Assembly (NCBI RefSeq): GCF_000801295.1
Contig: NZ_AP012978.1
Coordinates: forward strand, 372,001 to 436,000
Length of the DNA stretch: 64,000 bases
From: an endosymbiont of unidentified scaly snail isolate Monju
GTDB taxonomy: Bacteria > Pseudomonadota > Gammaproteobacteria > Chromatiales > Chromatiaceae
Reading direction: 5' to 3'
The position numbers and the translations under genes are program-made. The stretch's first letter is position 1. The number at the start of each line of letters is the position of its first letter. Of this stretch, positions 1 to 58,241 are shown one piece after another. The notes under the pieces were generated by a model. The model searched no databases. It was not told where the DNA came from and saw only the letters and a program-made list of their open reading frames with translations.

Positions 1-52
1 AGAAGGTGGCGGGCGAAGAAAACTTGAACCAGTTGATAAGCCTGTTCTGCAT
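1..52 (-). CDS. ccmC: CcmC haem exporter subunit, N-terminal fragment (runs off the left edge)
   Basis: Only the first 17 codons are in the window. They read MQNRLINWFKFSSPATF, which matches the usual CcmC opening (a basic/amphipathic stretch followed by S-P-x-x-F). CcmC is an integral inner-membrane protein that presents haem to CcmE during cytochrome c maturation. The position supports the call: it lies downstream of ccmA and ccmB on the same strand, in the standard ccmABC order. The gap to ccmB is about 140 bases, longer than usual. No strong ribosome binding site is visible, so the exact start is uncertain. Confidence 0.6.
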   Translation of the reverse strand, partial: MQNRLINWFKFSSPATF

Positions 53-193
53 GTGATTGCGGTGTGTTGGGGGTGGTTCGGGCGAGCCGTGAGGTTAACC
101 GATGATCTAGACCCACGCAAAAGGCGCAAGTTCACCCTTGCCGTCGGTGTCTCGTGGATTTATGACGCAGGTCATATCGGCCTGCGAACGTGG

Positions 194-862
194 TCATTCG
201 CTGGCGACTCGCAGTGCGGCTGCGGTGGCCAGCGGGGTGCCGAGGAGGGCCACCAGCAGGATGGCCCCGAGCATCGACAGGTGCGCCCCGCCGCCCAGGC
301 CCGAGGTGGTTGCCTCCACCGCGCCGGCGCCGAAGATCAGCACCGGAATGTAGAGTGGCAGCACCAGCAGAGCCACCAGCACGCCACCCGAACGCAGCCC
401 CAGGGTGAGTGCCGCGCCGATGGCGCCCAGCAGGCTGAGGGGGGGCGTGCCCAGCAGCAGCGACCAGACCATGACGGTCAGTGCCTCGGCCGAGAGGTCG
501 TATTGCAGGCCCAGCACCGGGGCCATGATCACCAGCGGCAGGCCGGTGATCAGCCAGTGCGCGATCACCTTGCCGATCACCAGCAGCGGCAGCGGTTGTG
601 GGGCCAGCAGCATCTGTTCGAGGGTGCCGTCGCGGTGGTCGGCCAGGAACAGTTGCTCGAGTGCCAGCATGGAGGCGAGCAGGGCGCCTACCCAGACCAC
701 CCCGGGGGCAATCAGGCGCAGGGTGTCGAGTTCCGGGCCGATACCCAGCGGGAACAGGCTGACCACGATGAGGAAGAAGATCAGGGTGGTGAACACATCG
801 GTGCGCCGACGCAGGGCGATGGTCACGTCGCGGCGCACGATCCAGAACAGCGCCTCAAGCAT
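194..862 (-). CDS. ccmB: Haem exporter protein CcmB
   Basis: The product is 222 residues, the usual CcmB length. CcmB is the membrane subunit of the CcmABCD ABC complex that releases holo-CcmE during c-type cytochrome assembly in the periplasm. Six hydrophobic segments can be seen, including a first one near residues 25-45 and a C-terminal one ending in an Ala-rich tail. The family-typical stretch LFLADHRDGTLEQMLLAP lies around residues 72-89. Its start overlaps the end of ccmA by 8 bases, indicating translational coupling. The dihaem cytochrome at 2424 is a plausible client of this system. Confidence 0.95.
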   Translation of the reverse strand: MLEALFWIVRRDVTIALRRRTDVFTTLIFFLIVVSLFPLGIGPELDTLRLIAPGVVWVGALLASMLALEQLFLADHRDGTLEQMLLAPQPLPLLVIGKVIAHWLITGLPLVIMAPVLGLQYDLSAEALTVMVWSLLLGTPPLSLLGAIGAALTLGLRSGGVLVALLVLPLYIPVLIFGAGAVEATTSGLGGGAHLSMLGAILLVALLGTPLATAAALRVASE

Positions 863-1511
863 GGCTCACCTCCGGGGTCTCCGCGCCCAGAGTGACACAG
901 CAGACGGTGCCCGAGGTCAGATCGACCTCCTGGTGGGTGGTAAGGATGACCATGCCGCCACGTGCCAGGTGATCGCGGATCACCGCCTGCAGGGTGTTCA
1001 CCGCGGCCACGTCCAGGGCACTGAAGGGTTCGTCCAGGATCCACAGTGCCGCCCGGCTGCACCACAGGCGGGCCAGTGCCACGCGGCGCTTCTGACCCTG
1101 CGAGAGGTGCTTGATCGGCAGGTCCTCGTGACCGCTCAGACCAATGTCTTCGAGCAACCGCCAGGCGGCCTGTTCATCCATGGCATGGCCGCGCACCGCG
1201 CCGTCCATGCGCAGGTTCTCGATGGCGTTGAGGTCGCCCTTGAGCGCGTTGAGATGGCCGAGATAGAGCAGCTCGTCGTGGAAGGCGTCGCGCTGGCGCT
1301 GGATCGGCTCGCCATTCCACAACACCTCGCCCGATTCCGGCTGCAGCAGCCCCGCCAGGGTGCGCAGCAGGGTGGTCTTGCCACTGCCGTTGGGACCACG
1401 CAGGTACATCAGCTGGCCGCTCTCGAGCGAGAAGTCGAGGCAGCGGAACAGCTGCCGGTCTCCCCGGCTGCAGCAGAGCTTGCTGGTCTCCAGGCGGTGG
1501 GTTGGGTTCAC
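855..1511 (-). CDS. ccmA: Haem exporter ATP-binding protein CcmA
   Basis: The product is a 218-residue ABC ATPase of the cytochrome c maturation system. The Walker A motif GPNGSGKT is at about residues 39-46, the signature LSQGQ at 136-140 and the Walker B LWILDEP at 156-162. The protein energises the CcmBC membrane complex that frees haem-loaded CcmE. It is the first visible gene of the ccm operon, followed by the overlapping ccmB. The 183 bases upstream separate it from the divergent Crp/Fnr-like gene at 1695, so the two could share a control region. Confidence 0.95.
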   Translation of the reverse strand: MNPTHRLETSKLCCSRGDRQLFRCLDFSLESGQLMYLRGPNGSGKTTLLRTLAGLLQPESGEVLWNGEPIQRQRDAFHDELLYLGHLNALKGDLNAIENLRMDGAVRGHAMDEQAAWRLLEDIGLSGHEDLPIKHLSQGQKRRVALARLWCSRAALWILDEPFSALDVAAVNTLQAVIRDHLARGGMVILTTHQEVDLTSGTVCCVTLGAETPEVSHA

Positions 1512-1694
1512 GTCTCGGCTTCTGGTCGAGGGCTGCTGAGGACCGGCAGTCTACACCATCGGGCCGGGATGCGGGTTTACCCCTCATGCAATTTGGGAAG
1601 ACTCGTGCAAAGATTGGCGAACGACCCGCTTTCGCGGGGACGAGAATACCGGCGTCGGAGCGGCGCCGCCGAGTCCTTGGAAAAGAGGGATTGC

Positions 1695-2330
1695 ATGTCC
1701 AGGTTCCTGAAGCCGCGTGCCCGGCCGACCCAGTGCGCGGCCTGTCCCATCCGCCAGAACGCGCTGTTCCAGGTGGTACCCGTCAGCTATATAGATGATG
1801 CCCAGTCGCGGCGTACCGACCAGTATCACCTGCCGGCGCGGCGTCTGCTCTATGAGGAGGGGGCGCCGGCGACCATGGCCTACACCCTCTACGAAGGGTG
1901 GTTGATGTTGTACCGTTCGCATTCCGACGGGCGCCGCCAGGGGCTGCGCGTGGCCCTGCCTGGCGACTTCTTGGGTTACATGCCGCCCGGCGAGGGGTAT
2001 ATCCACCATTCCGCGCTGGCAATCACCAACGCGGTGGTCTGCGGTTTTGGCCAGGCTGGCCTGCACGAGATGATGGGCAAGCATCCCGATCTGGCCGCGC
2101 ACATCACCCGTATCCAGGCGCGCTACATGGCCAGTTGCCAGAGCGCCATGCTGGGCCTGGGGCGCAAGACCGCCGAGCAGCGCATCGCCTTCCTGATTGC
2201 CGAGCTGTTCCACCGGCTGCGCAAGCGGCGCCTGCGGATGGATGGCATCGCTCGCGCCGAGCGACAGCGGCTGGAGATTCTCGATCTGGATGCCCTGGTC
2301 CGGTTGGGCGAGTTCGTCGAAACCGAGTAG
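1695..2330 (+). CDS. Crp/Fnr-family protein apparently lacking its helix-turn-helix
   Basis: The reading frame from the ATG at 1695 gives 211 residues. The N-terminus carries a CxxC pair (CAACPIRQNALF, residues 14-25), as in FixK/FNR-like proteins. Residues 35-120 form the cyclic-nucleotide-binding-like beta roll, and the long dimerisation helix follows. At about residues 160-182 it reads GRKTAEQRIAFLIAELFHRL, the normal lead-in to a Crp-type HTH. After RMDG it goes directly to IARAERQRLEILDLDALVRL, the normal tail that follows the recognition helix. The 25-35 residues of the HTH itself are missing in frame. If so, it cannot bind DNA in the usual way and may be a non-functional remnant or a dominant-negative partner. 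The frame is open far upstream, but this start fits the family N-terminus. Confidence 0.8.
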   Translation: MSRFLKPRARPTQCAACPIRQNALFQVVPVSYIDDAQSRRTDQYHLPARRLLYEEGAPATMAYTLYEGWLMLYRSHSDGRRQGLRVALPGDFLGYMPPGEGYIHHSALAITNAVVCGFGQAGLHEMMGKHPDLAAHITRIQARYMASCQSAMLGLGRKTAEQRIAFLIAELFHRLRKRRLRMDGIARAERQRLEILDLDALVRLGEFVETE

Positions 2331-2369
2331 TTCTCCCTGCCAGGGATAGGTAATTGTATCGCCAGCCGG

Positions 2370-2375
2370 TATAAT
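2370..2375 (+). promoter_or_regulatory. Putative -10 element (TATAAT) for the dihaem cytochrome gene
   Basis: A perfect TATAAT lies 48 bases before the GTG start at 2424. No convincing -35 hexamer is seen at 16-18 bases upstream, so an activator may be needed or the match may be chance. Confidence 0.4.
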
Positions 2376-2423
2376 CGCGGCCGAATTTCACCCTTTCGAC
2401 CCACTTCATCACGGGAGATTGCC

Positions 2424-3317
2424 GTGTCCGCACAAAACGATTCTGGTTTCCTGCGCATGTTTCTCTTCGTTCTGGGCGCTCTGGTCGCCTTTACCATCCT
2501 CATCATGTTTGCCGCCGGCTCGGTGAGTGAAACGCTCGAGGAGAAACACGGCAGCGACAGCCGTAAGCAGGCCGCAATCGCCGAGCGCATCAAGCCGGTG
2601 GGCGAGGTGGCCGTGGCCAAGGCCGGTGCCGCGCCCGCCGCCCCGCGTTCCGGCAAGGACGTGGTTGGCGCCGTCTGCGGCGCCTGCCACGCCACCGGCG
2701 CGCTGAATGCGCCCAAGATCGGCAGCGCCGATCAGTGGCAGCCGCGCTTCGACGCCAACGGCGGTCTCGACGGTCTGGTCAAGAGCGCCATTGCCGGCAA
2801 GGGCGCCATGCCGCCGCGTGGGGGCGGCAATGTCAGCGACGAGGAACTGCGTAACGCCATTACCTACATGTTGAAGCAGGCCGGTATCGATGCCGGTGCT
2901 GGCGATGGCAAGGCCGCGGCGGCTGCGCCGGTCAGCCCGGCACAGGCCGCTGCCGACATGGTCGGCAGCGCCGTCGAGGCGGCGACCCAGGCTGCGGGCC
3001 CGGCAATGAATGCCGTCACCGAGGCGGTGGCGCCTGGCGCCAGTCAGCCTGCCGCCGCGCCGGCGGTCGAAGACGCCAGCGCGCTGGCCCAGGCCAAGGG
3101 TTGCCTGGGTTGTCACCAGGTGGCGGCCAAGGTGCTCGGCCCGGCCTACAAGGATGTTGCGGCCAAGTACCGCGGGGATGCGGGGGCGCTCGACCGCCTG
3201 GTGGCCAAGGTCAAGTCCGGTGGCGCCGGTGTCTGGGGGCAGATCCCCATGCCGCCCAACAACGTGAGCGACGAGGAGGCTACCCGCCTGGTGAAGTGGA
3301 TCCTCAGCCTGCAGTGA
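2424..3317 (+). CDS. Membrane-anchored dihaem cytochrome c (c5-type)
   Basis: The product has 297 residues. One N-terminal membrane helix (about residues 11-31) has no obvious cleavage site, so the protein is probably tethered in the inner membrane facing the periplasm. Two CxxCH haem sites are present: CGACH at 85-89 and CLGCH at 227-231. Each is followed by a candidate axial methionine (M129 in GAMPP, M276 in IPMPPN). The two domains are joined by an Ala/Pro-rich linker (about 155-220). The first domain resembles cytochrome c5, the second a c-551/c5 module. Such proteins carry electrons between the quinol-oxidising complexes and oxidases. The GTG start is preceded by a purine-rich stretch (cgggaga) at a suitable distance, and a strong terminator follows the gene. 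Confidence 0.88.
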   Translation: MSAQNDSGFLRMFLFVLGALVAFTILIMFAAGSVSETLEEKHGSDSRKQAAIAERIKPVGEVAVAKAGAAPAAPRSGKDVVGAVCGACHATGALNAPKIGSADQWQPRFDANGGLDGLVKSAIAGKGAMPPRGGGNVSDEELRNAITYMLKQAGIDAGAGDGKAAAAAPVSPAQAAADMVGSAVEAATQAAGPAMNAVTEAVAPGASQPAAAPAVEDASALAQAKGCLGCHQVAAKVLGPAYKDVAAKYRGDAGALDRLVAKVKSGGAGVWGQIPMPPNNVSDEEATRLVKWILSLQ

Positions 3318-3367
3318 TCGTTCGGCGGTCCCGTACCGTACCGCCTGAGCCGATCCTCGACTGGCCA

Positions 3368-3396
3368 GGCCCCGCCCTCGTGGCGGGGCCTTTTTT
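3368..3396 (+). terminator. Rho-independent terminator after the dihaem cytochrome gene
   Basis: A perfect 9-bp stem (GGCCCCGCC / GGCGGGGCC) encloses a 5-base loop and runs straight into six T. It begins 50 bases after the stop codon. Confidence 0.93.
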
Positions 3397-3464
3397 GTAT
3401 CGGCGAGCGGGTACCTGGGTTCGTGCTCACCGGCGGGGAAACACGGGGCCGTCGGACAGGCAAC

Positions 3465-3488
3465 AAAAAACCCCGCCGGATGGCGGGG
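3465..3488 (-). terminator. Rho-independent terminator for the sulfur-globule-like gene
   Basis: On the minus strand a 7-bp perfect stem (CCCCGCC / GGCGGGG, loop of four) is followed by six T. It sits about 28 bases beyond the stop codon of the gene at 3516-3857 and faces the terminator at 3368-3396. Confidence 0.88.
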
Positions 3489-3515
3489 TCTCTGCCGTCG
3501 GCAAGGGCGCCGGTC

Positions 3516-3857
3516 TTACTTGGCGGCCGGGGCCTGCGGAGCGGCGGGGGCAGCAGCCGGGGCCGGAGCGGCAGCCGGTGCCACCGGGGCGCCATAGTAG
3601 TAGGGCGCATAGTAGGGCTGGTCGTAACCATAGCCCGAGAAGTTGCCGTCGGTCGAGCCGTTGCCCTTGAAGTCGCCAGCGGTCTTGCCACGGCCCTTGA
3701 AGGTCATGGAGAAGGTGGCCTCGCCTTCGGCGTTGCCGTTGCCGACGAAGTCGCCGTTGCCGTTGTAGGCACCGTTGGTGGAACCATTGTTGGAATCCCA
3801 GAAGGCAGCGGCCTGGGCGGAAGCGATGATGGCAGCGATAGCGATGATCTTTTTCAT
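3516..3857 (-). CDS. Sulfur-globule-like secreted low-complexity protein
   Basis: The product has 113 residues. A clear signal peptide (MKKIIAIAAIIASAQA) is predicted to be cleaved before AAFWDSNNG. The mature part is rich in Gly, Asn, Asp, Tyr and Phe, with irregular repeats of the type NGNGDFVGNGN and KGNGSTDGNFSG, then a Tyr-rich patch (YYAPYYYGAP) and a Pro/Ala tail. The AFWxxNNG opening and the Gly/Asn/Tyr bias are typical of sulfur globule envelope proteins of purple and colourless sulfur bacteria, which coat periplasmic sulfur deposits. The call rests on composition and not on a catalytic motif, so another secreted structural protein is possible. The start is set by the signal peptide and an AAGGAG site 8-12 bases upstream; the longer open frame to 3929 is unlikely. 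Confidence 0.65.
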   Translation of the reverse strand: MKKIIAIAAIIASAQAAAFWDSNNGSTNGAYNGNGDFVGNGNAEGEATFSMTFKGRGKTAGDFKGNGSTDGNFSGYGYDQPYYAPYYYGAPVAPAAAPAPAAAPAAPQAPAAK

Positions 3858-4044
3858 GACAGCTCTCCTTGTGAATTCGTTATTGCGAGGTTCGGGAATT
3901 CGGCGGTACTGCTGCCGGTGTTCACGCACAAGTATATTAGTAAATGCTTAAATGTCAATACGCTGATATTTGCATGGCGCAAACGGGGGGGGCGCGGCGG
4001 GGCGCCGATCCCACATGCAGGAGGGCTCGTCCCCGGGCCCAACA

Positions 4045-4097
4045 TTCGCGGCGAGGACGCCGCTCCTGCCCGTAGGAGGCTCGTCCCCGGGCCGAAC
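4045..4097 (+). repeat. REP-like dispersed repeat, copy A, within the 3858-4220 gene-free stretch
   Basis: This 53-base unit recurs at 30618-30670 with about five differences. It contains a small hairpin (GCGGCG-AGGA-CGCCGC) and a GTCCCCGGGCC segment. The end of the unit (ggctcgtccccgggcc) is also duplicated just upstream at 4024-4039. Both copies are intergenic and precede a gene on the plus strand (trpE here). The rest of 3858-4220 shows only an AT-rich patch near 3930-3970, which probably carries the promoter of the sulfur-globule-like gene. Confidence 0.75.
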
Positions 4098-4220
4098 AGG
4101 GGGCTGCAGCACCTTTGGCTTGGCCTCTGCGCGGTTTTTGGCTATGGTTCGGACTTTCAGGCATTCGGACGACCACACCATGGCCCTGGCAGCCCACCAC
4201 AGAAAGGAAAAGACCACGCG

Positions 4221-4283
4221 ATGGCGTTGAGCGCTGTCGTGTCGCTGTTCCTTGTCTTTCTGTCTGCGTGGAGTCCCTCATGA
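4221..4283 (+). CDS. Possible 20-codon leader ORF coupled to trpE
   Basis: An ATG at 4221 opens a 20-codon [23 protein letters not shown], whose stop overlaps the trpE start (ATGA). A purine-rich site (agaaagga) lies about 12 bases upstream. The peptide is hydrophobic and has one Trp codon near its end, so it is not a classical tandem-Trp attenuator. A second short ORF (4180-4230) ends in Trp-Arg just before it. No attenuator hairpin with a T run is visible. Either may be a chance frame or a leader that controls trpE by coupling. Confidence 0.25.
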
Positions 4284-5776
4284 ATCCTGAGCAATTCGCC
4301 GCCCTGCAGGCGCAGGGCTACAACCGCATCCCGGTGGTGCGCGAGGTGCTGGCCGACCTCGACACCCCGCTCAGCGTTTATCTCAAGCTGGTCGACGGTC
4401 CCTACGGCTATCTCTTTGAATCGGTCCACGGCGGCGAGAAGTGGGGCCGCTATTCCATCATCGGCCTGCCGGCCCGCACCCGCCTGGAGGTGCGTGGCGG
4501 CCAGGTGCGCCTGATCGGCGAGGCCGGCGAGGAGGTGGTCGAGAGTGACGACCCGCTGGCCTTCGTGGAGGATTTCCGCGCCCGCTTCCGGGTGCCGGCG
4601 CTCGAGGGGCTGCCGCGCTTCCACGGCGGCCTGGTGGGCTATTTCGGCTATGACACCGTCGGCTACATCGAGCCGCGCCTGCGCAATCCCGACAAGCCCG
4701 ACCCGTTGGGTACGCCCGACATCCTGCTGATGGTCTCGGACGAGGTGGTGGTGTTCGACAATCTGCGCGGGCGCATGTACATCGTGGTACACTCCGATGT
4801 GGAGGCCGGACAGACCCTGGCGGATGCCGAGGCGCGGATCGAGACGCTCTACCGGCGCATGCAGACCGGGGCCCCGCGCCCGGAATTGCCGCCGTCACGG
4901 AAAGTGCAGGAGTCGGACTTCGTCTCCGGCTTCACCGAGGCGGGCTTCAAGGCGGCGGTGGGGCGCATCAAGCAGTACATCCTCGACGGCGACTGCATGC
5001 AGGTGGTGCTCTCGCAGCGCCTGAGCATCCCCTTCTCGGCGCGCCCGCTGGATCTGTACCGCGCGCTGCGCGGGCTCAATCCCTCGCCCTACATGTACTT
5101 CCTCGATCTCGACGAATTCCAGATCGTCGGCTCCTCGCCGGAGATCCTGGTGCGCCTGGAAGACGGCGAGATCACGGTGCGGCCCATCGCCGGTACCCGC
5201 CGTCGCGGTCACACCGAGGAAGAAGATGGTGCGCTGGAGACCGAACTGCTGGCCGATCCCAAGGAGCTGGCCGAGCACCTGATGCTGATCGACCTGGGGC
5301 GCAACGACGTGGGCCGGGTGGCCAGGGTCGGCACGGTGCGGCTCACCGAGAAGATGGTGGTGGAGCGCTATTCGCACGTGATGCACATCGTCTCCAATGT
5401 CGTTGGTGAACTGCGTGAGGGGCTGTCCGCCATGGACGTGCTGCGCGCCACCTTCCCGGCCGGTACCGTTTCGGGGGCGCCCAAGATCCGCGCCATGGAG
5501 ATCATCGACGAGCTCGAGCCGGTCAAGCGCGGCATCTATGCCGGCGCGGTGGGGTACCTAGCCTGGAACGGCAATATGGATACCGCGATTGCCATCCGCA
5601 CTGCGGTGATCAAGGGGGGGCAGTTGCATATCCAGGCGGGTGCCGGGGTGGTTGCCGACTCGCGCCCGGAACTGGAGTGGAAGGAGACCATGAACAAGGG
5701 GCGGGCGGTGTTCCGCGCGGTGGCGTTGGCCGAGGCCGGCCTGGACAGGGCGATCGGTACGGATGGGGAGGGCTGA
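4280..5776 (+). CDS. trpE: Anthranilate synthase component I
   Basis: The product has 498 residues, full length for TrpE. It converts chorismate to anthranilate with ammonia passed from TrpG, the first committed step of tryptophan synthesis. The N-terminal domain starts [18 protein letters not shown]. The C-terminal chorismate-binding domain contains [39 protein letters not shown] (about residues 290-312) and [18 protein letters not shown] (about 393-410). The start at 4280 is chosen because GGAG lies 6 bases upstream and the family N-terminus begins here, although the frame is open further upstream. trpG follows at once. Confidence 0.96.
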
Positions 5777-5779
5777 GCC

Positions 5780-6382
5780 GTGCTGCTGATGATCGACAAT
5801 TACGATTCCTTCACCTTCAACATCGTGCAGTACCTGGGTGAGCTGGGCGCCGAGGTGAAGGTGGTGCGCAACGACGAGATCGACATCAATGGCATCGAGA
5901 CCCTGGCCCCGGAACGGCTGGTGATCTCCCCCGGTCCCTGCACTCCGCACGAGGCCGGCATTTCGGTCGAGGCCATCCGCCACTTTGCCGGGCGCCTGCC
6001 CATCCTGGGGGCCTGCCTGGGACACCAGTCCATCGGCGAGGCCTTCGGCGCGCGCATCGTGCATGCGCGCGAGGTGATGCACGGAAAGACCTCGCCGGTA
6101 TACCACGCCGATGTCGGGGTGTTCACCGGGCTCGACAACCCGTTCCGCGCCACCCGTTATCATTCGCTGGTGATCGAAAGGGAGTCGCTGCCGGACTGTC
6201 TCGAGGTGACCGCCTGGACCGAGCATGATGGCGAGGTGGACGAGATCATGGGCGTCCGTCACCGCGAACACGACATCCAGGGCGTGCAGTTCCACCCGGA
6301 ATCCATCCTCACCGAGCAGGGGCACCAGCTGCTGAAGAATTTTCTGGATGGTAAATGGCCGCAAAGGGCGCAAAGGGCTTGA
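5780..6382 (+). CDS. trpG: Anthranilate/aminodeoxychorismate synthase glutaminase component
   Basis: The product is a 200-residue class I glutamine amidotransferase. The nucleophile is in [14 protein letters not shown] (Cys near residue 79) and the His-Glu pair in VQFHPES (near 172). It supplies ammonia to TrpE and probably also to PabB, as in other gammaproteobacteria with a single TrpG/PabA. It starts with GTG three bases after the trpE stop. The last codons (KWPQRAQRA) are unusual: they are the left arm of an inverted-repeat element that continues to 6470, so the C-terminal tail was acquired from the repeat. Confidence 0.94.
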
Positions 6383-6470
6383 ATGCGAGACGATTCAGCC
6401 GGTCGGGTTTCGATCTGACATGGCGGGCTGCAACCCAGCCGGTGGCATTTTCGCGTCCTTCGCGGTAAAT
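6355..6470. repeat. Degenerate inverted-repeat element between trpG and trpD
   Basis: The left arm (CCGCAAAGGGCGCAAAGG, 6359-6376) is roughly complementary to the right arm (cgcgtccttcgcggtaaat, 6452-6470). It belongs to the same type as the elements at 13801-13933 and 33565-33742, in which short units such as CACRAAGGACACRAAGG face each other. The left arm overlaps the 3' end of trpG and supplies its last codons. Confidence 0.55.
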
Positions 6471-6490
6471 CTGAATGCTTGGAGTACTGG

Positions 6491-7522
6491 ATGATGAACA
6501 TGTCTCAGGCAATCGCGCGGGTGGTCGATCGGGGGGATCTCTCGGCCGGGGAGATGACCGAGGTAATGCGCACCATCATGACCGGCGGCGCCACCGATGC
6601 GCAGATCGGTGGTTTCCTGATCGGTCTGCGCATGAAGGGTGAGACGGTGACCGAGATCGCGGCCGCGGCCTCGGTGATGCGCGAGCTGGCTGCCGGCGTG
6701 GATATCGGCGGGCTGCCGCACGCGGTGGATATCGTGGGCACCGGGGGCGATGCCTCCGGCACCTTCAACATCTCGACGGCCAGCATGTTCGTGGCCGCCG
6801 CCGCGGGCTGTCACGTGGCCAAGCACGGCAACCGCTCGGTCTCCAGCAAGTCGGGCAGCGCCGACGCGCTGGAGGCTGCGGGCATTCACCTGGGGCTGAC
6901 CCCCGAACAGGTCGAGCAATGCGTGCGCGAGGTCGGCGTGGGCTTCATGTTCGCACCCGGTCACCACAGTGCCATGAAACACGCCATCGGCCCGCGCAAG
7001 GAGATGGGGGTGCGCACCATCTTCAACGTTCTTGGGCCACTCACCAATCCCGCGGGGGTGCCCAACCTGCTGCTCGGGGTGTTCAGTGAAACCCTGCTCG
7101 AGCCGCTGGCCGAAGTGTTGCGTGAGCTGGGTGCGCGCCATGTCATGGTGGTGCATGCGCGCGAGGGGCTGAACGAGATCGGCATCGGCGATCTCACCGA
7201 CGTGGCCGAACTGCGCGATGGCGAGATCCGTCGTTACACCATCGATCCGGCCGAGCACGGCATCGAGCGCGCCGGGCTGGAGACGATCCGCGCCGAGGGC
7301 CCCGAGGAGAGCCTGGCTGCCATCCTCCGGGTATTTGCCGGCGAGCCGGGACCGGCGCGTGACATCGTCACCCTCAACGCCGGGGCGGCCATCTACGTGG
7401 CGGGCGTGGCCGACTCGCTGGCCGCGGGCCTGGTCCGGGCACGCGAGGCCATCGACAGCGGTGAAGCCGAGCGCCGCCTGCAGCGGCTGGCCGAGCTGAG
7501 CCAGCGCCCGGGGGCGGCATGA
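6491..7522 (+). CDS. trpD: Anthranilate phosphoribosyltransferase
   Basis: The product has 343 residues from the ATG at 6491. It joins anthranilate to PRPP to make phosphoribosyl-anthranilate. The PRPP-binding signature [18 protein letters not shown] is near residues 78-95, with [16 protein letters not shown] following and [17 protein letters not shown] near 172-188. The ATG at 6491 has GGAG six bases upstream, which is better supported than the TTG twelve bases earlier. The stop overlaps the trpC start (ATGA). The gap of about 108 bases to trpG is filled by a repeat element. Confidence 0.95.
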
Positions 7523-8319
7523 GCGGCACGCCGGACATCCTGAAGAAGATCGTCGCGCGCAAGCACGAAGAGATTGCCGAGCGCCGCGCCGCTGTGCCCG
7601 AAACCGAGCTGGCCGCGCGCGTCCGCGAGATCGACGCCCCGCGCGGCTTCGTCGCCGCCCTCGAGGCGCGCATCGCTGCGGGACAGGCCGGCGTGATCGC
7701 CGAGATCAAGAAGGCCTCGCCGTCCAAGGGGGTGCTGCGCGAGCACTTCGACCCGGCGACGATCGCCGCCAGCTATGCCCGGCACGGGGCTGCCTGCCTG
7801 TCGGTGCTCACCGACCGTGACTTCTTTCAGGGCAGCGAGGCCTACCTGCAACAGGCGCGTGCGGCCTGCGAGTTGCCGGTGCTGCGCAAGGATTTCATCG
7901 TCGACCCCTACCAGGTGATCGAGGCGCGGGCCATCGGGGCGGACTGCATTCTGCTGATCGCCGCTTGCCTGGATGATGCGCAGATGACCGAACTCAACGC
8001 CCGGGCCCAGGCGCTCGGTATGGACGTGCTGGTGGAGGTGCATGATGCCGGTGAGCTGGAGCGCGCGCTGGCGCTGCCGGGGGCGCTGCTGGGGATCAAC
8101 AATCGCAACTTGCGCACCTTCGAGGTGAGTCTGGAGACCACCATTGAACTACTGCTGCCGGCCATTCCCGGCGGTCGCCTGGTGGTGACGGAGAGCGGCA
8201 TCCTGGCGCCGCAGGACGTGCACTACATGCGCGAGAACGGGGTACACGCCTTCCTGGTTGGCGAGGCCTTCATGCGCGCCGACGACCCTGGCGTACGGCT
8301 CGCCGAGTTGTTTGCCTGA
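7519..8319 (+). CDS. trpC: Indole-3-glycerol phosphate synthase
   Basis: The product is a 266-residue stand-alone TrpC TIM barrel, not fused to TrpF. It closes the ring of carboxyphenylamino-deoxyribulose phosphate to indole-3-glycerol phosphate. The catalytic lysine is in [18 protein letters not shown] (near residues 60-77). Other family stretches are [26 protein letters not shown]-type sequence near 190 and a late glycine-rich phosphate site. Translation is coupled to trpD by a 4-base overlap. No further trp gene follows; the next gene is on the other strand. Confidence 0.96.
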
Positions 8320-8328
8320 ACCGTCGCT

Positions 8329-9012
8329 TCAGCGGGTGCCAAAGACCACGATAGTCTTGCCGCTGACGCTGATCAGGCCGCGCTCCTCCAGGTCCTTGAG
8401 TACCCGTCCGGCCATCTCGCGCGAGCAGCCGACGATGCGGCCGATCTCCTGGCGGGTGATGCGGATCTGCATGCCGTCGGGATGGGTCATGGCGTCGGGC
8501 TGCTTGCACAGGTCGAGCAGGGTGCCGGCGATGCGTCCGGTGACATCCAGAAAGGCGAGGTGACTCACTTTCTGGCTGGTGGCCACCAGGCGTTCGGTGA
8601 GCTGGCGACCAATGGCATACAGGATGTCCTTGGCATGCTCCTTCAGGTCGCTCTCGAACAGGTTTTCGAGCTTGGTGTAGGAGATCTCCGCCAGCTCGCA
8701 GGGTGCGCGGGTGCGCACCGTCACCGAGCGGGTGGGCTGCGGTACGAACAGGCCCATCTCGCCGATGAACTCGCCCTTGTTGAGGTAGGTGAGGATGATT
8801 TCGCGGCCGTCGTCGTCTTCCATCAGTACCGTCACCTGGCCGGAGACCAGGTAGAAGATGCTGTCGGCCGAGTCGCCCGGGTGAATGAAATCTGTTTTGG
8901 CCGGGTATTTTCTACGGTGACAGTGTGCCAGAAAGGGTTCCAGCCAAGCAGGATCCTGGGGGGGCGGTTTGGCGATGCTGCTGGTGGTGCTGGATTGCGT
9001 CATAAGTGTCAT
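8329..9012 (-). CDS. crp: cAMP receptor protein family regulator (Crp/Vfr type)
   Basis: The product has 227 residues from the ATG at 9012, or 224 from the ATG at 9003; E. coli Crp has 210, so the extra length is an N-terminal tail rich in Ser/Thr/Pro. The cNMP domain contains [20 protein letters not shown], matching the cAMP-binding GE...R-S/T pattern. The HTH contains [20 protein letters not shown], almost identical in type to Crp/Vfr. It should bind cAMP and then TGTGA-type sites. It lies divergent to the OsmC gene, the crp/yhfA arrangement of many gammaproteobacteria. Neither candidate start has a strong ribosome binding site. Confidence 0.92.
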
Positions 9013-48759: not shown

Positions 48760-49776
48760 TCAGCGTCCGCCCGATTGCATGCGTCGCTGTTCCTCGAGCA
48801 GCGGCTGTACCTCGGCCAGCCCCCGGGTGGCGAGCAACTGGCCGGGCTCGGCGGCGAGCGCCTGTTCGAAGGCGCGGGCGGCGTCCTCAAAGCGGCCCTG
48901 GTAGAGCCAGACATAGCCCAGGTTGGCCAGGTAGAGGGGGTCGTTGTCGCCGGTATCGACCAGCTCGCGGTAGACGCGTTCGCTCAGCTCGAGGTCGTTG
49001 CGCGCGAGCAGCAGGCGATTGAGGGTGACCACCAGTTCGGGGTCATGGCGGCTGGTGCGCAGACCGGCGATGGCCTGTTGCAGGGCGTCCTCGACATTGC
49101 CACGGCGTTCGGCAACGGCGCTCAGGCCGGCGTGACAGAGGTGGCAGCGGACATCGTGCTCCAGACCGCGCGAGAAGGCGCGTTCGGCGGTCTCGAGGTC
49201 GCCGCGCGCCAGCGCGACCCAGCCGCGACCGACCCAGGGCAGGGTGTTCCAGGTCTGCATGATGCCGGTGGCGATGGAGATGTACTCGGCATCCTCGAAA
49301 TACAGGGCCTCCTCGGTCTTGTCGAACCAGTCGGCAGCCCGGTCGAGTTCGCCTCGGTAGAAGGCCAGCCAGCCGCGTGCAGCGAACAGCATGGGTCGCT
49401 GGTGCTGGCCCATCCAGCGCTCGGCGCGATCCAGCAGCGGTGGCACCTTGTCGAAGCGGCCGCGTTTCATCATCACCCAGGCCTCGCCCAGCCAGGGGTG
49501 GAAACGCGAGGGCTGGTCTTTTTGCATGGCGCGGAACTCGCGCAGCGCCTCCTGGTAATGAGCGAGCTGGAACCAGGACCAGGCGTGCAGCACGCGGTCC
49601 TGCCAGGAGGCGCTCGCCTTGCCGGTCAGTTGCAGGGTGCGGACGTAGTCCTTGGCCCCATAGGCCTCGAGGACGGCGTTGCCGCCGCTCGGACGTTCGA
49701 GCGTGGTCTGGCAGGCTGCCACCCACAGGGCCAGCAGGAAGATGGGGAAGCGCAGGGGATGCCTCATGGTGTTCAT
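48760..49776 (-). CDS. TPR lipoprotein, last gene of the PqqD/ATP-grasp/decarboxylase operon
   Basis: The product has 338 residues. The N-terminus MNTMRHPLRFPIFLLALWVAACQTT carries a lipoprotein signal with the acylated Cys near residue 22. About eight TPR-like helical pairs follow (for example WQDRVLHAWSWFQLAHYQEA, LYLANLGYVWLYQGRFEDAA). A CHLCH-like stretch (RCHLCHAGLSAV) is present; it has the right spacing for a haem site, but the protein shows no cytochrome fold, so I do not call it a cytochrome. The start overlaps the previous gene's stop (ATGA). It probably lies in the outer membrane facing the periplasm as a scaffold for the operon's product. Confidence 0.8.
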   Translation of the reverse strand: MNTMRHPLRFPIFLLALWVAACQTTLERPSGGNAVLEAYGAKDYVRTLQLTGKASASWQDRVLHAWSWFQLAHYQEALREFRAMQKDQPSRFHPWLGEAWVMMKRGRFDKVPPLLDRAERWMGQHQRPMLFAARGWLAFYRGELDRAADWFDKTEEALYFEDAEYISIATGIMQTWNTLPWVGRGWVALARGDLETAERAFSRGLEHDVRCHLCHAGLSAVAERRGNVEDALQQAIAGLRTSRHDPELVVTLNRLLLARNDLELSERVYRELVDTGDNDPLYLANLGYVWLYQGRFEDAARAFEQALAAEPGQLLATRGLAEVQPLLEEQRRMQSGGR

Positions 49777-50393
49777 TTGTCGTCCAGCTTCAGATAACGG
49801 CGCGCCGCCGGGTTCTCCGGATCGAGGATGAATACCGCGTGATACAACCGGGTCGCCTCGTCGGTCTGCCCCTGAAGGGCATGCACTGCGGCGAGCTCGG
49901 CGAGGAAGCGCACGTCCGCGGGGTAGACTGCCAGCATGCGTTCGGCGACCGTGCGCGCGGCTTCGTATTTTTTCTGTCCCTTCAGCGCGAGCAGCAGGCG
50001 CAGGTTGCCATAGTAGTTGTACAGGTCGGTGCGCAGCACCTGGGTCGCCACCTGTTCGGCGCGGCCATAGTCGTGCTGTGCCAGCAACGGCAGCAGCAGG
50101 CCGAGGCGCGCCTCCAGCGAGGCGGGAACGGCCTTGATCGCCTGGCGGTAGTGCTTGCGGGCATTGGCATGGTGGCCGGCCAGGTAGTGTAGCCAGCCCA
50201 TGCGCAGGTTGACCGTGTAGGCCTCGGGATAGCGTTCGAGTACGGCGGCCAGCGCCTTCATGGCGTCGTCGTATTTCTGTACCCGTTCGTAGGCCAGTGA
50301 GCGATGGTAGGCGTCCGTGACCCAGGTGTCGTCCGATGCGGCCAGCGCCAATGCCGAGCAGAGCAGCAGGGTGGCGAGCAGTCCGTGTTTCAT
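49773..50393 (-). CDS. Periplasmic TPR protein
   Basis: The product has 206 residues. A signal peptide (HGLLATLLLCSALALAAS) ends near residue 20. Four to five TPR units follow (YDDAMKALAAVLERYPEAYT, ANARKHYRQAIKAVPASLEA, YEAARTVAERMLAVYPADVR, ATRLYHAVFILDPENPAARR). It overlaps both neighbours by four bases, so it is co-translated with the urea-transporter/M23 fusion upstream and the TPR lipoprotein downstream. It probably acts as an adaptor in the periplasm; no catalytic residues are seen. Confidence 0.82.
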   Translation of the reverse strand: MKHGLLATLLLCSALALAASDDTWVTDAYHRSLAYERVQKYDDAMKALAAVLERYPEAYTVNLRMGWLHYLAGHHANARKHYRQAIKAVPASLEARLGLLLPLLAQHDYGRAEQVATQVLRTDLYNYYGNLRLLLALKGQKKYEAARTVAERMLAVYPADVRFLAELAAVHALQGQTDEATRLYHAVFILDPENPAARRYLKLDDK

Positions 50394-52507
50394 GATGGTG
50401 TCTCCCGGGGGGCTGTGATGTCGGTATCCGTGTCTCCATGTGTCGGCTGGAGAGGGCGCATCTGCAGTACCTGTCCGTTGGATTCGATGCGTTGCAGCAG
50501 GCCCTGCCCCTCGGCGAGCAGGATGTGGAAGGTCTCGCGCGCGCCCTGGCGGTCGCTGGTCTCGCCCTCGATCTCGCGGCGGCCGACGAAACGTGCCTGG
50601 TAATCGATGCGACCGAGGTCGGGGGCGAGCAGGCGTGCCAGGTTGAGCAGGTGCCGGGAGGCGCGATTCTCGTGCACTGCCATCGGCAGTACGTCCTTCC
50701 ACCACAGGCCCGGCTGGTGGCTCAGGGGGAGTCGTGGCAGGTAACGGAACAGCGCCGCCAGCAGCGGGTCATGACCCTCGAGCCGGTAGAAATAGAACTG
50801 GCCGGTGTCACGGTGAAAGAACAATTGTGCCTTTCCGCTGTCGAGGCAGGTTTCGCCCGCCGCGTTCATGCGCACGTGCAGCTCGCGCGTCTCGCCGACC
50901 TGGTTCTCCAGGCGCCAGCGGCTGTCGAGGACCAGTGCGGTGGCGGTCAGCAGGTGGTCGTCGGGATGCAGTGGTGCGACGCGGTCGCCTTCGGCGGGTA
51001 CGGCGGCGGGAACGAAACGCCCGCCCGATTTGCGATAGTCCTGTACCAGGAAGGGCAGGGTCGCCTCGCCCGGCATGGCGCCGGCCTGGACATGCAGGTG
51101 GATGTGCGGCTGTGGCGAGTAGCCGGAGTTGCCACACAGGCCGAGGCGGGTGCCGGGTTCCACCCAGTCGCCGGCCTTGACCTGGAGGCTGTCCTGGGCG
51201 AAGTGCGCGATGATCACGTGCCAGCCAGCACCGGTGTCGATGCTTACCCAGTTGCCCCAGTTGTCGCGCTCGTTGAGCTTGCCGGGGGCGTTGTCCGGCA
51301 CGCCGTCGTGGACCATGGCCACCCGCCCGCGCACCGGCGAGAGCACCGGTTTGTGCCAGGCGTGGTAGTCGGTCAGCGCCAGGCCGTCGCCGCGGAAGCT
51401 GCTGTCGTTGCGCAGCATGAGGAAGTCCAGGGCGTGGGTCTGCAGGCCCTGGTGGGTCCAGCGCCCGTCGAAGCCCTGCCAGACCGACCACTCGCCGCTG
51501 AAGGGCAGTACCACGCGCTTCGGTTCCAGTGGAAAGCGATGGCGCCGGTTGAGGTGGTCGTCGAGGGTGTCTTCGGGCGTGGCGCCGATGCGATCGGCCA
51601 CCATGGGGTAACCGACCAGGATCAGCACGTAGAGCAGGCTCAGGGTCACCAGGTTGAACGGCAGGGTGAAGGCCGGCAAGCCGTACAGTGCCCAGAACAG
51701 CTTGACCGCGCTCATCAAGAGGGCGGCGAGCATGACGCCGACCGCGGCGATCGCCAGGCTGCGCCGCGAGGGCACCAGGAAGACGCCACCGAGCGCCATG
51801 GCGATGAGGATGAAGTTGAAGTTGTTGGGGTCCAGGTAGGCGCTGTCGGGCGCGCCTTGCATCAGCGCCACCAGGCCGGTGCCCACCAGGTAGCCGAGCA
51901 CCGCCAGCAGGAACAGGATGCGCGAGTACAGCAGCAGCACCAGGGCGAATATCAGGCCGGTGAGCGGATAGGGCAGGAACAGGATGGCACCCAGTGCACG
52001 CAGGAAGCCGTCGATGACGGTTGGCAGTGCCTGTGGGGTCCAGGCCGCGAGCAGCCCGGCATCCTCGCGCACCAGCAGGTTGCTGTAGCCCAGCGAGGCC
52101 AGGTAGACCACCATGCTGATGATCACGAAGGGCAGGCTGAGAATGGGCAGTTGCAGGAACTGGCGGAACAGGCTGTTGAGTATCAGGCTCAGGTTCAGAC
52201 TCATTACGCCCGCGGTGGCGGCGAGCAGCAGACTCAGTGGCGTGATCTGGAACAGGCTGCCGATGCCCAGCCCGGTGAGCAGGGCGTTGTAGGTAAAGAA
52301 GCCCGTTTCGAGAAACGCCGCCCCCATGCCGATGAAACTCGCAAAGGCATGGGCGGCGGCGACCGAGACCAGCCCCGCCGTGCCCACCGAGGGTACCGTG
52401 AAGGTGGCTGCCAGCATCAGCGCGCCCGGCCAGGCGCGTTGCAGGAACAGGATCTCCGAGTAGCTGTCGGAGAGGCTGCGGACGAGCGACAGGAGACGGT
52501 CCGGCAT
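50390..52507 (-). CDS. Urea-transporter-family membrane protein fused to an M23 peptidase domain
   Basis: The product has 705 residues. Residues 1-310 form a urea-transporter fold with both family signatures LPxxTxPF: LPILSLPFVI in the first half and LPAFTLPFNL in the second. From about 325 a soluble domain follows. An M23 (lysostaphin-like) peptidase core lies near 350-490: HALDF with the first His and Asp, WHVIIAHFAQDSLQVKAGDW, and PHIHLHVQ with the HxH zinc ligand. A further domain of unknown fold (about 520-690) follows. M23 enzymes cut Gly-containing peptides, often in cell walls. Fusion to a transporter suggests cleavage of something passed through or held at the membrane. Stop and next start overlap (ATGA). 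Confidence 0.85.
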   Translation of the reverse strand: MPDRLLSLVRSLSDSYSEILFLQRAWPGALMLAATFTVPSVGTAGLVSVAAAHAFASFIGMGAAFLETGFFTYNALLTGLGIGSLFQITPLSLLLAATAGVMSLNLSLILNSLFRQFLQLPILSLPFVIISMVVYLASLGYSNLLVREDAGLLAAWTPQALPTVIDGFLRALGAILFLPYPLTGLIFALVLLLYSRILFLLAVLGYLVGTGLVALMQGAPDSAYLDPNNFNFILIAMALGGVFLVPSRRSLAIAAVGVMLAALLMSAVKLFWALYGLPAFTLPFNLVTLSLLYVLILVGYPMVADRIGATPEDTLDDHLNRRHRFPLEPKRVVLPFSGEWSVWQGFDGRWTHQGLQTHALDFLMLRNDSSFRGDGLALTDYHAWHKPVLSPVRGRVAMVHDGVPDNAPGKLNERDNWGNWVSIDTGAGWHVIIAHFAQDSLQVKAGDWVEPGTRLGLCGNSGYSPQPHIHLHVQAGAMPGEATLPFLVQDYRKSGGRFVPAAVPAEGDRVAPLHPDDHLLTATALVLDSRWRLENQVGETRELHVRMNAAGETCLDSGKAQLFFHRDTGQFYFYRLEGHDPLLAALFRYLPRLPLSHQPGLWWKDVLPMAVHENRASRHLLNLARLLAPDLGRIDYQARFVGRREIEGETSDRQGARETFHILLAEGQGLLQRIESNGQVLQMRPLQPTHGDTDTDITAPRETPS

Positions 52508-52517
52508 CGTGCGGTGT

Positions 52518-53874
52518 TCAGTCGGCCAGGTGTGCGGGCAGGCGTTCGGGCGCGGTCATCATCGCCAGGTCTTCGCGCTCGCGGATGACATGGGGCTTGC
52601 CGTGCTCGTCGATGAGCACGATCGCCGGTCGGTACTCGATGAACTGCATCCACTGGGTGACGTTGTAGGCACCTACCGGTGACAGGGTCAGGCGGGTGCC
52701 GCGCGGCATGTGCGGCAGCATGGCCGCCTCGTCGATCACGTCGATGTTCATGCACAGCGGACCGTTGAGGATCGCCGGTTCGTTCATGCCCAGGAGTTCG
52801 CGGTCGGGCTCGATGGTGAAGTTGTACCAGGTCGAGGTGTAGAGCAGATTGACCCCGGCATCGAGCACGTAGGCGCGGCGGCCGTCGGGCAGGCGCTTGC
52901 TGGCGTTGACCGTGGTGATCAGGTAGCCGGCCTCGTCCACCATGGCGCGGCCGGTCTCGAGTACCAGCTCCGGCAGTTCGCCGGGACGCAGCGCGTTGTA
53001 CAGGCCCTCGGCGATCTTCTCGGCAAAGGCCTCCACCGGCGGCACCGCCACCTCGGGGGGGGAAGTACACGCCCTTCAGGCGACTCTTCGAGGGCAAGCC
53101 GCCGCCGATGTCGTAGTAGCGCAGGCTGTAGCCGAAGGCCTCTTCGATCTCGTGACCGAAGCCGACCAGCTTTTCCATGGCGACCCGGTAGGCATCGGGC
53201 TCGAGCAGGAAGGTGCCGATATGGCAGTGCAGGCCGACGATGCGCATCCTCCCGCCGGCATGGATACGGCGCACCGCGTCCAGCGCCTGGCCGGATTCCA
53301 GGTTGAAGCCGAAGCGGCTCCACTGCGGCTGAATGCCCGAGTCCAGGTTGAGGCGGATGGCCACCTCCAGTTCGCGATCGAGCGCGTCGGCCAGTGCCTC
53401 GAAATCCTCGATCTCGTCGAAATGGTCGATGTGGATGCGCGCGCCCTCGGTGGCCGCCACCCGCAGCGCCTCGCGCGACTTGTTCGGGCCGTTGAAGATG
53501 ATGTTCTCTCCCGGCACGCCCAGTCGCCGCGCCTTCTGGTATTCCATCTCCGAGATCACCTCGGCGAGGGAGCCCTCCTGGTGGAAGATGGCGCAGATGG
53601 CATCGAGGTAGTTGGTCTTGTACGACCAGCCGAAGGTGACCTTGGGGTAATGGCTGCCCAGCGCGGCGCGGATCTCGCGTGCCTTCTCGCGGATCGCCCG
53701 CTCGGAGAAGACGAACAGCGGCGAACCGAAGCGTTCGGTCAGTTCGGCCACGGGTACACCATCGATGGCCTCGCGCACCGGGCGCGCAAAGTAGGGCGAG
53801 GCCCCGAACTTGTTGAGCGCTCCCCCGGTGTTGAGCCGGGTGATGCTGGGTTTCACGTATTCGTTCTGGGTCAT
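52518..53874 (-). pseudogene. PLP-dependent decarboxylase (DAP/ornithine decarboxylase fold III), frameshifted in a G8 run
   Basis: Two frames join to a 451-residue protein. The first (from 53874) has an N-terminal tail (YVKPSITRLNTGGALNKFG) and a fold-III decarboxylase core with the PLP lysine in FGWSYKTNYLDAI (near 80-92) and LHCHIGTFLL and YDIGGGLPSKSR further on. The second frame continues EVAVPPVEAFAEKIAEGLYN with LVLETGRAMVDEAGYLI. The break falls in eight consecutive G on the plus strand (53055-53062); seven would restore the frame. Homopolymer error or phase variation are both possible. The enzyme probably decarboxylates an amino acid or peptide end. It overlaps the ATP-grasp gene (ATGA). 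Confidence 0.83.
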
Positions 53875-54908
53875 GTCTCTCCCCGGGTGATCATGTTCTG
53901 GAAGGTTTGCATGTCGCTGATCTGCTCCATGGTGTAGCGAACGTACAGTTTGCCGGTCGGGTAGTCGCTGGTGCGCTCGGTGTCGTATCCCAGCGCCAGT
54001 CGCACCAGGCGCGCCGGCAGGTTGACGCCGACCCCGGTGGCGAAGTGCACCCAGGCAGGAAAGCGCGGGTTGATCTCGATCAGCCAGATGCGGTCGTCGC
54101 GCACGATGCATTCCATCTCGAAGCCGCCGCGCCAGCGGAAGGCCTCGACGAAACGCCGCACCGCGGCCTCGAGCTGCGGATGGCGGATGGTTACCCCAGT
54201 CCAGATCTTGCCCAGCTCGGTCACGCTCAGCTTGCGCGCTGCCACCAGGCCGGCGTCGCCGCCCTCGCCGTCGCCCAGGCCGATGACGTTCAGTTCGTCA
54301 CCATCGACGCGCTGCTGCACGATCACCGGGTAGCCCCATTCGGCAGCGATGCGTCCGAACAGGTTCATGGCGGCATCCAGGGTATGTGCCACGTAGGCCT
54401 TGTAGAGCGCGCCCTTGATCATCACCGGGAAGCCCAGCGCCTGGACCGCTTCGATCAGTTCCTGGTGGCTGCTGACCAGGCGTTGCGCCGGCGCCTCGAT
54501 GCCTGCCTGTGCCGCGACCTCCTGCAGGTGGTCCTTGGCGCGCAGGCGGAACTGGTCTTCGGTAGGCAGCAGGGCGCGGATACCCGCCGCTTCCAGCTTC
54601 TCCGCGTTGCGCACGTAGAAGGGCAGTTCCGAATCCAGGGTCGGCACCACCACGTCCATGCCGAACTGCTGCTGCACGTACAGGATGCGTTGCATCAGCG
54701 CGTCGTCGCTGGCCGTGGGGAAGGGGACCATGAAGCTGCGCTCGAACAGCCAGTTGAGATACACGCCGGGTTCCAGCGCGTCGTAGGCCAGGCCGGCGAT
54801 GCGGCACTCCAGACCCGGGTCTTCCTTCAGGCTGCGCGCCACCCCGGTGCCGGGGGCGGGATTGTCCGAGGCGTTGATGCCGGAGACGGCGATGGCGACC
54901 GTGCTCAT
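53871..54908 (-). CDS. ATP-grasp ligase (carbamoyl-phosphate-synthase-like)
   Basis: The product has 345 residues. The ATP-grasp domain is seen in FPVMIKGALYKAYVAH (nucleotide-binding lysine, near 160-175), VIVQQRVDGDELNVIGLGDG and the metal-binding IWLIEINPRFPAWVHFATGV (near 275-294). An N-terminal Rossmann-like domain precedes it. Such enzymes make an amide or ester through an acyl-phosphate. Lying between a PqqD-like protein and a decarboxylase, joined to both by 4-base overlaps, it probably links an amino acid to a carrier peptide or small molecule. Its substrate cannot be read from the sequence. Confidence 0.85.
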   Translation of the reverse strand: MSTVAIAVSGINASDNPAPGTGVARSLKEDPGLECRIAGLAYDALEPGVYLNWLFERSFMVPFPTASDDALMQRILYVQQQFGMDVVVPTLDSELPFYVRNAEKLEAAGIRALLPTEDQFRLRAKDHLQEVAAQAGIEAPAQRLVSSHQELIEAVQALGFPVMIKGALYKAYVAHTLDAAMNLFGRIAAEWGYPVIVQQRVDGDELNVIGLGDGEGGDAGLVAARKLSVTELGKIWTGVTIRHPQLEAAVRRFVEAFRWRGGFEMECIVRDDRIWLIEINPRFPAWVHFATGVGVNLPARLVRLALGYDTERTSDYPTGKLYVRYTMEQISDMQTFQNMITRGET

Positions 54909-55147
54909 GCGATCAGGCGCAGCAGGCGCAGTTGCTGCAGGAACTCGGTGACATCGCGCGAGGCCTGTTCGGCCGGGATGGCCCAGTTTTCGGTCAGCCC
55001 GGTGGCCAGTGCCTCGGCGTCCTGCCCCTGCTTGATGCCGTCGAGCAGGAAACGCGCGGTCTCATTGATCAGGAAGCTCTCCCCGGTATGCGGGTCGAAC
55101 ATGAAGCCCTCGTCATTGAGGGCCATGCGGGAAAGTGTGTCGCTCAT
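54905..55147 (-). CDS. PqqD-like peptide-recognition protein
   Basis: The product has 80 residues. It reads as a single PqqD domain: MALNDEGFMFDPHTGESFLI with INETARFLLDGIKQGQDAEA and a C-terminal helix FLQQLRLLRLI. PqqD domains (RiPP recognition elements) hold the leader part of a peptide for modifying enzymes. It is the first gene of the six-gene operon and is coupled to the ATP-grasp gene (ATGA). No precursor peptide gene is visible between it and the tRNA; none of the PQQ enzymes is present. Confidence 0.84.
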   Translation of the reverse strand: MSDTLSRMALNDEGFMFDPHTGESFLINETARFLLDGIKQGQDAEALATGLTENWAIPAEQASRDVTEFLQQLRLLRLIA

Positions 55148-55316: not shown

Positions 55317-55391
55317 GGGCGCGTAGCTCAGCGGGAGAGCACTGCCTTCACACGGCAGGGGTCACAGGTTCAATTCCTGTCGCGCCCACCA
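55317..55391 (+). tRNA. tRNA-Val (anticodon CAC)
   Basis: The 75-base gene folds into a full cloverleaf. The acceptor stem GGGCGCG pairs with CGCGCCC, the anticodon stem CTGCC/GGCAG encloses TTCACAC with anticodon CAC, and the T arm contains GGTTCAATTCC. The CCA end is encoded. It reads GTG codons. A terminator follows. Confidence 0.95.
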
Positions 55392-57014: not shown

Positions 57015-58241
57015 ATGTTTTGTCGATCGTTCGGAGCGTTCGTGCGCTCCCTGTCGCTGGCCGCCTGCGTGGCGCCGGCAATGGCCACGGGGACCGAGCT
57101 GCCCCTGCCCGACGGGCTGCGTGCGCTGGTACGCAGCGCGGTGGCCGACCATCCCGAGGTCCGGGCCGCGCAGGCGCGCGTGCGGGCCGCCGAGGCGCGC
57201 CGCGATGGTGCCGCGCGTCCGCTCTACAACCCCGAACTGCAACTTGATGCCCAGCGCACCTCGACCGGCAGCAACAGCCTCGAGGCGGGTCTGTCGCAGG
57301 CGCTGGACTGGCACGGCAAGCAGGCGGCGCGGACTGTCGGCAGCGAGCACGAGCTGGCGCTGGCGCGCGCCGGCCTGGTGACGGTGCGTGCGCGTCTCGC
57401 CGGCGAACTGCTCGCCGCCCTGCGCCGTTGCGAGGAGGAACGCGCACAGCGCGACCTGGTGCAGGCCCAGCACGACCTGCTGGCGCGTTTCACACGCCTG
57501 ACCGAACGCCGTGCGCGGGCCGGTGGCGTGCCGCCAGCGGCGGTCCGGCTGGCGCGCCTGGCAGTGCGGCAGATGGCCCTCGAGCTCGCATCCAGCGAGG
57601 CGGCTGCCGGTGTGCAAGTGCTGGGGGCTGGCGGCTGTCCCGAGCCTGGCCTGTTCCCGGCGCTGCCGCCGGATCTGCCAAAGGCACTGGCCGAGGGGCT
57701 GGACGAGCGCCATCCCGAGTTGCAGGAGCTCGCAGTTGCGGTGACGGCAGCGCAGGCGCAGATACGCCAGGCCGACACCGAACGCCGGGCCGATCCTTCC
57801 CTGGGGCTGCGACTGGGCCGCGACGCGGGCGAGAACCTGGTGGGGCTGAGCTTCGCCCTGCCGCTGCAGGTCCGCAACGACTACCGCGAAACGGTGCGTG
57901 CCGCGCGAGCCGCGCATGCCGAGGCCCTGGCCGGGTTGGCCGCGGCCCGGCAGCGCCTGGAGGCGACACTCGACGGCAGTGTGCGCCGGCTGCATCGGCT
58001 GCACCGGGCCTGGGAGGAGTGGATGGCCGGCTCTGGAGCCTCGGGGTCTTTCGATCGGGATGGCGAGCTGGAACGCCTGTGGCGGGCCGGCGAACTGGAT
58101 ACCGGTGACTACCTGCAACAACTGCAACAGGCGCTCGACACTCGTGCCGCGGCGGAATCGCTGCGTGCCGCGCTGTGGACGGCCTGGCTGGACACCTGGG
58201 CCGCGAGCGGCCTGCTCTCGCGTTGGATCGAAGAGGAATGA
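57015..58241 (+). CDS. czcC: Outer-membrane efflux protein (CzcC/TolC family)
   Basis: The product has 408 residues. A signal peptide runs to about residue 25 (SLAACVAPAMATG). The rest is mainly long coiled helices in two repeats, with NPELQLDAQRTSTGSNSLEA at the first barrel strand and DPSLGLRLGRDAGENLVGLS in the second, the usual CzcC layout. It is the outer-membrane channel of the RND pump encoded by the next two genes. The stop overlaps the start region of the adaptor gene. Confidence 0.9.
   Translation: MFCRSFGAFVRSLSLAACVAPAMATGTELPLPDGLRALVRSAVADHPEVRAAQARVRAAEARRDGAARPLYNPELQLDAQRTSTGSNSLEAGLSQALDWHGKQAARTVGSEHELALARAGLVTVRARLAGELLAALRRCEEERAQRDLVQAQHDLLARFTRLTERRARAGGVPPAAVRLARLAVRQMALELASSEAAAGVQVLGAGGCPEPGLFPALPPDLPKALAEGLDERHPELQELAVAVTAAQAQIRQADTERRADPSLGLRLGRDAGENLVGLSFALPLQVRNDYRETVRAARAAHAEALAGLAAARQRLEATLDGSVRRLHRLHRAWEEWMAGSGASGSFDRDGELERLWRAGELDTGDYLQQLQQALDTRAAAESLRAALWTAWLDTWAASGLLSRWIEEE

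Follow-up and report, generated by a model that had tools for sequence, protein, structure and literature searches.

What does a bacterium make with a PqqD-like protein, an ATP-grasp enzyme, a PLP decarboxylase, a fusion of a urea-transporter (UT) domain with an M23-like domain and two TPR proteins (TPR1 and TPR2), all encoded in a single run of genes? These six genes lie in this order on the minus strand from 55147 to 48760 of the window, i.e. the whole stretch of 64,000 nucleotides analysed here, which belongs to an endosymbiont of the scaly snail isolate Monju. The preliminary description of this DNA regarded them as a coupled operon of no named system that makes, trims and exports a modified peptide or amine, an interpretation that is partly supported by the analysis below.

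Gene arrangement

The six-gene operon is confirmed. ATGA overlaps join PqqD to ATP-grasp, ATP-grasp to the decarboxylase, UT/M23 to TPR1 and TPR1 to TPR2, and a 10-nt gap separates the decarboxylase from UT/M23, in agreement with the overlaps and near-zero gaps of the preliminary description. Coordinates are given in Table 1. The decarboxylase reaches 93.6 bits with Orn_Arg_deC_N and 37.4 bits with Orn_DAP_Arg_deC; the ATP-grasp protein lies narrowly above the cut-offs of two Pfam models and above those of no NCBIfam model. Signal peptides, the lipobox and beta-barrel assignments, here and below, come from reading the sequences, not from a tool. The plus strand carries a tRNA-Val (cac) gene a short way upstream of the operon (55317-55391), and an RND-efflux-like gene set is present in the window from near 57015.

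Table 1. Features of the operon, with positions in the window
Feature	Position	Strand	Basis or remark
PqqD-like RiPP recognition element (RRE), 80 aa	54905..55147	-	PF05402, 51 bits
ATP-grasp ligase, 345 aa	53871..54908	-	NCBIfam PRK12767-type below curated cut-offs; predicted fold
PLP alanine-racemase-fold decarboxylase	52518..53874	-	PF02784/PF00278; frameshifted in assembly
Predicted RRE-binding tag, decarboxylase residues 6-24, YVKPSITRLNTGGALNKFG	53803..53859	-	motif and conservation
G8 run shifting the decarboxylase frame	53055..53062	.	
UT/M23 fusion protein, 705 aa	50390..52507	-	PF03253, 195 bits, and PF01551, 42.4 bits, in one ORF
UT channel domain	51626..52477	-	dvUT E187 filter residue replaced
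M23-like domain, predicted cytoplasmic	51008..51520	-	invariant H352, D361, H435, H468, H470
TPR1, predicted periplasmic	49773..50393	-	TPR Pfam matches; signal peptide by eye
TPR2, predicted lipoprotein	48760..49776	-	TPR Pfam matches; lipobox VAAC by eye

The decarboxylase, taken for one open gene in the preliminary description, occupies two frames in the assembly, as the run of eight G shifts the frame after GVYFPP and leaves an N-terminal and a C-terminal part. CTD079 (locus L002), the closest relative found in a contig scan that detects close relatives only, possesses an intact decarboxylase ORF with one C fewer at the homopolymer. Within the six genes no other indel separates the two genomes (approximately 6.4 kb; the surrounding alignment is 91.5% identical). 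The frameshift may be either a sequencing error in the homopolymer or a genuine lesion.

Conservation across genomes

The gene order PqqD, ATP-grasp, decarboxylase, UT/M23 recurs in 28 of the neighbourhoods read (27 recognised by script, plus L064, whose PqqD the script had missed), which come from 18 families. The co-occurrence of at least four of the genes in unrelated genomes, which the preliminary description had set as its test, is thereby found. Among 274 genomes of the class, a protein search matches the UT/M23 fusion in 14 and a profile search matches the ligase in 11, all 11 being among those 14 (hypergeometric 2.7e-17, shared descent ignored). Full decarboxylases are found in the same genome set, except for the split copy of the window, a truncated copy in G179 and two weaker matches. 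More families were added from 398 genomes of the phylum. G233 and G250 contain UT/M23 and lack both the ligase and the type-III decarboxylase. The remaining loci run into contig ends, have another gene arrangement (L086) or possess UT/M23 without the ligase-decarboxylase pair (L059, L060); in L060 (G250, 1-8909), the genes upstream of UT/M23 look like those of metal RND efflux and a P-type ATPase. Plasmids gave only partial matches to UT/M23, those listed being confined to the M23 part; none was a fusion that spans 80% of the query. The open-access literature on ATP-grasp and urea transporter combined with decarboxylase or M23 yielded nothing relevant and no published description, in line with the preliminary view that no named system has this combination. 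The ligase, decarboxylase, PqqD and UT/M23 cassette is apparently a conserved pathway not yet described.

The ligase and the decarboxylase

The predicted structure of the ATP-grasp protein (AlphaFold, pLDDT 92.4) has the ATP-grasp fold, with 2pn1 (Z 31.5) and PylC 4ffl (Z 24.9) among its nearest folds. Biotin carboxylases score between these two, so the fold alone gives no substrate.

The nearest PDB structure to the decarboxylase, searched after removal of one G to match CTD079, is the N-citrylornithine decarboxylase 7kh2 (E=8.7e-52), whose substrate is an ornithine conjugate (PMC7857480). FslC/FigC of rhizoferrin synthesis, the known enzyme of this type, shares the fold and acts on a conjugate, but the cassette has no NIS synthetase, and the FslC-type relatives L093 and L094 lack the N-terminal tag described below. 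The BtrK structures 7ru7 and 2j66 are also among the PDB matches. In butirosin biosynthesis, BtrJ and BtrK form an equivalent pair of ATP-grasp ligase and alanine-racemase-fold decarboxylase, the latter acting on a bound amino acid; the cassette differs in having no acyl-carrier protein. An assignment of the decarboxylase as LysA is contradicted by its TIGR01048 scores (131.7 and 69.7 bits for the two pieces, cut-off 297.9 bits), by the replacement of the Arg-Pro segment of diaminopimelate decarboxylases (IRPSIY and MRPAMY in 2p3e and 1twi) with YTSTWY and by a separate LysA of 526 bits elsewhere in the genome.

The PqqD-like RRE and the decarboxylase tag

The family profile of the PqqD-like protein identifies an RRE of the lasso type, with TfuB1 (6jx3, E=1.5e-8) and TbiB1 (5v1u, E=3.7e-8) as best PDB matches. 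In the window and many other loci PqqD stands alone, without a TetR domain. A TetR-type domain precedes the PqqD domain in L077 and L082 (TetR matches) and, by alignment read by eye, in several others, and such fusions occur in several families.

The decarboxylases have in common an N-terminal [WY]xxPx[LIM], followed by GxxNKFG in most homologues and a variable linker to the catalytic domain. The pattern [YWF]xxPx[LIVM] is present in 31 of 31 decarboxylase homologues against 1.8 expected from shuffles, the 31 being related sequences, not independent events, and is absent from the two FslC-type relatives. Mean information is 2.83 bits in the tag and 1.59 in the following linker; the Lys of NKFG is retained in 26 of 27 sequences and replaced by Arg in one. 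The tag has the spacing of the lasso leader motif YxxPxL. Lasso B1 recognition depends on the leader residues Tyr(-17), Pro(-14) and Leu(-12) (PMC10368454), and the motif W/Y/LxxP is general to RREs (PMC12710340). Trp or Tyr in the tag pairs with L/F/I against S/G/M/H in one PqqD column, a suggestive pattern that is confounded by descent. Six decarboxylase N-termini matched no lasso-precursor family in NCBIfam, and a 27-residue tag peptide, with Tyr typed for the motif Trp, had no match in PDB. Taken from sequence patterns, docking of PqqD on the decarboxylase tag is a strong lead.

The UT/M23 fusion protein

In the predicted structure of the fusion (AlphaFold, pLDDT 87.3), the UT part matches the urea transporter dvUT (Foldseek, 3k3g, E=5.4e-16) and the C-terminal part matches M23 peptidases, including ShyA, lysostaphin and DipM. 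Fold and the conserved Asn of both repeats are as in dvUT, but the fusion has no filter Glu and carries the M23-like and a further domain at its C-terminus. At the site of E187, one of the dvUT filter residues (PMC4357013), the window protein possesses Ala, hence neither Glu nor Gln; 27 of 29 homologues have Ser, Ala, Gly or Thr and two have Gln. In the M23-like domain, the usual HxxxD spacing is altered, and the His expected four positions ahead of D361 is not retained.

Loop charges favour an N-in/C-in orientation and, together with the UT fold, place both ends inside, so that the M23-like domain is predicted to be cytoplasmic, which would be unusual for an M23 domain. In L087 (4897-6819) and L088 (5072-6643), a UT-like protein with TPR repeats between its halves is encoded near the AsnB-type gene beside UT/M23; TPRs at this place in the second UT fit a central loop on the periplasmic side. 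The M23 relatives that stand alone are mixed, with a signal-peptide-like N-terminus in L089 and no evident one in L020 and L021 (approximately 243 aa).

Accessory genes and a second version

The preliminary description counted two TPR proteins in the set. Not all loci have both. Homologues of TPR1 are common, but the TPR2 lipoprotein was found to follow TPR1 in the window and, besides it, only in CTD079 and L073; many other loci possess a beta-barrel-like gene of approximately 300 aa in its place. AsnB-type genes adjoin UT/M23 in L086-L088 and would fit an amide product.

A second version of the module occupies L104 (1224-10039) and comprises UT/M23, a TPR protein, a fold-type-I Orn/Lys/Arg decarboxylase, a 496-aa protein, an AAT-family protein, a beta-barrel-like protein and another TPR protein. 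The 496-aa protein has no Pfam match and is ATP-grasp-like by sequence reading. L059 begins as L104 does. No PqqD was seen in the stretch of L104 that was read, so PqqD is not essential to the UT/M23 module. Since two unrelated ligase-decarboxylase pairs share one UT/M23 module, an amine or amide product is supported.

Proposed pathway and alternatives

We give about even odds to a conserved pathway that yields a small amine or amide of non-peptide nature, in which PqqD organises or senses the enzyme pair and the UT domain moves the product. The ATP-grasp enzyme would link an amino acid with a second molecule, and the decarboxylase would remove the carboxyl group of this amino acid, most probably while it is part of the conjugate. 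Bound to the decarboxylase tag, PqqD may keep the enzymes in contact or, in its TetR-fused form, couple enzyme level to transcription. The product would cross the inner membrane via the UT domain, the filter of which lacks the urea-type Glu/Gln, while the M23-like domain, probably on the cytoplasmic side, may act on the cargo or gate it. From there the route outward may continue by way of the TPR protein with the signal peptide and, in the many relatives that possess it, the beta-barrel-like protein. There is a very slim chance that the tag itself is a built-in carrier, presented by PqqD, on whose NKFG Lys the ATP-grasp enzyme builds a substrate that the same chain decarboxylates and the M23-like domain cuts free for the UT channel.

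Ligases with the ATP-grasp fold modify peptides in graspetides, and this precedent, together with the proximity of PqqD to lasso RREs, speaks for a true RiPP pathway, in which PqqD binds a separate precursor, the ATP-grasp enzyme and the decarboxylase modify it and UT/M23 trims and exports it. The motif, however, sits on the decarboxylase in all 31 homologues, and a precursor search through 43 loci (652 kb) found 11 small motif-bearing ORFs, none alike at E 1e-3 and none recurrent, so that the conserved short ORF sought in the preliminary description did not appear. Unlike in lasso B1 systems, the tag is on an enzyme, no precursor was found in the loci read and the B2 transglutaminase-like protease PF13471 has no match in the genome of the window (G000). 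A RiPP pathway is accordingly improbable; from the earlier alternative of a peptide or an amine, the amine fits the decarboxylase, and the peptide is not supported. It is unlikely, though less so, that PqqD is a regulator only, controlling the operon in response to the decarboxylase tag or to a ligand and taking no part in catalysis. RREs are thought to be derived from DNA-binding regulators (PMC7470986), and TetR-PqqD fusions in several families point the same way; against this, PqqD lacks TetR in the window and many loci, and its gene is the first of the operon and overlaps that of the ligase.

The matches of the M23 fold to ShyA, lysostaphin and DipM, the signal-peptide-like N-terminus in L089 and the predicted periplasmic location of the TPR proteins would suit a cell-wall system, with UT/M23 as a peptidoglycan hydrolase anchored in the membrane and an amine from the enzymes serving to modify or protect the wall. 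The N-in/C-in loop charges, with which the central-loop TPRs of L087 and L088 agree, put M23 inside; neither L020 nor L021 shows a signal peptide, and the usual His before D361 is not conserved. We therefore attach a low probability to a cell-wall role, and trimming by M23 on the periplasmic side is doubtful. An operon for polyamine or urea turnover, with an ordinary amino-acid decarboxylase and a urea channel, would agree with the fold families of the parts and with the OKR_DC protein of the second version; it is highly unlikely, because the E187 residue of dvUT is lost, the best match of the decarboxylase is an enzyme for a conjugate, and the ligase and the RRE are left unexplained.

A cassette common to at least 18 bacterial families would, under the proposed amine or amide pathway, point to a widespread metabolite not yet known. 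If PqqD docks on an enzyme, the use of stand-alone PqqD/RRE proteins as markers of peptide pathways would need revision, and the TetR-RRE fusions would suggest a means for the cell to sense enzyme level.
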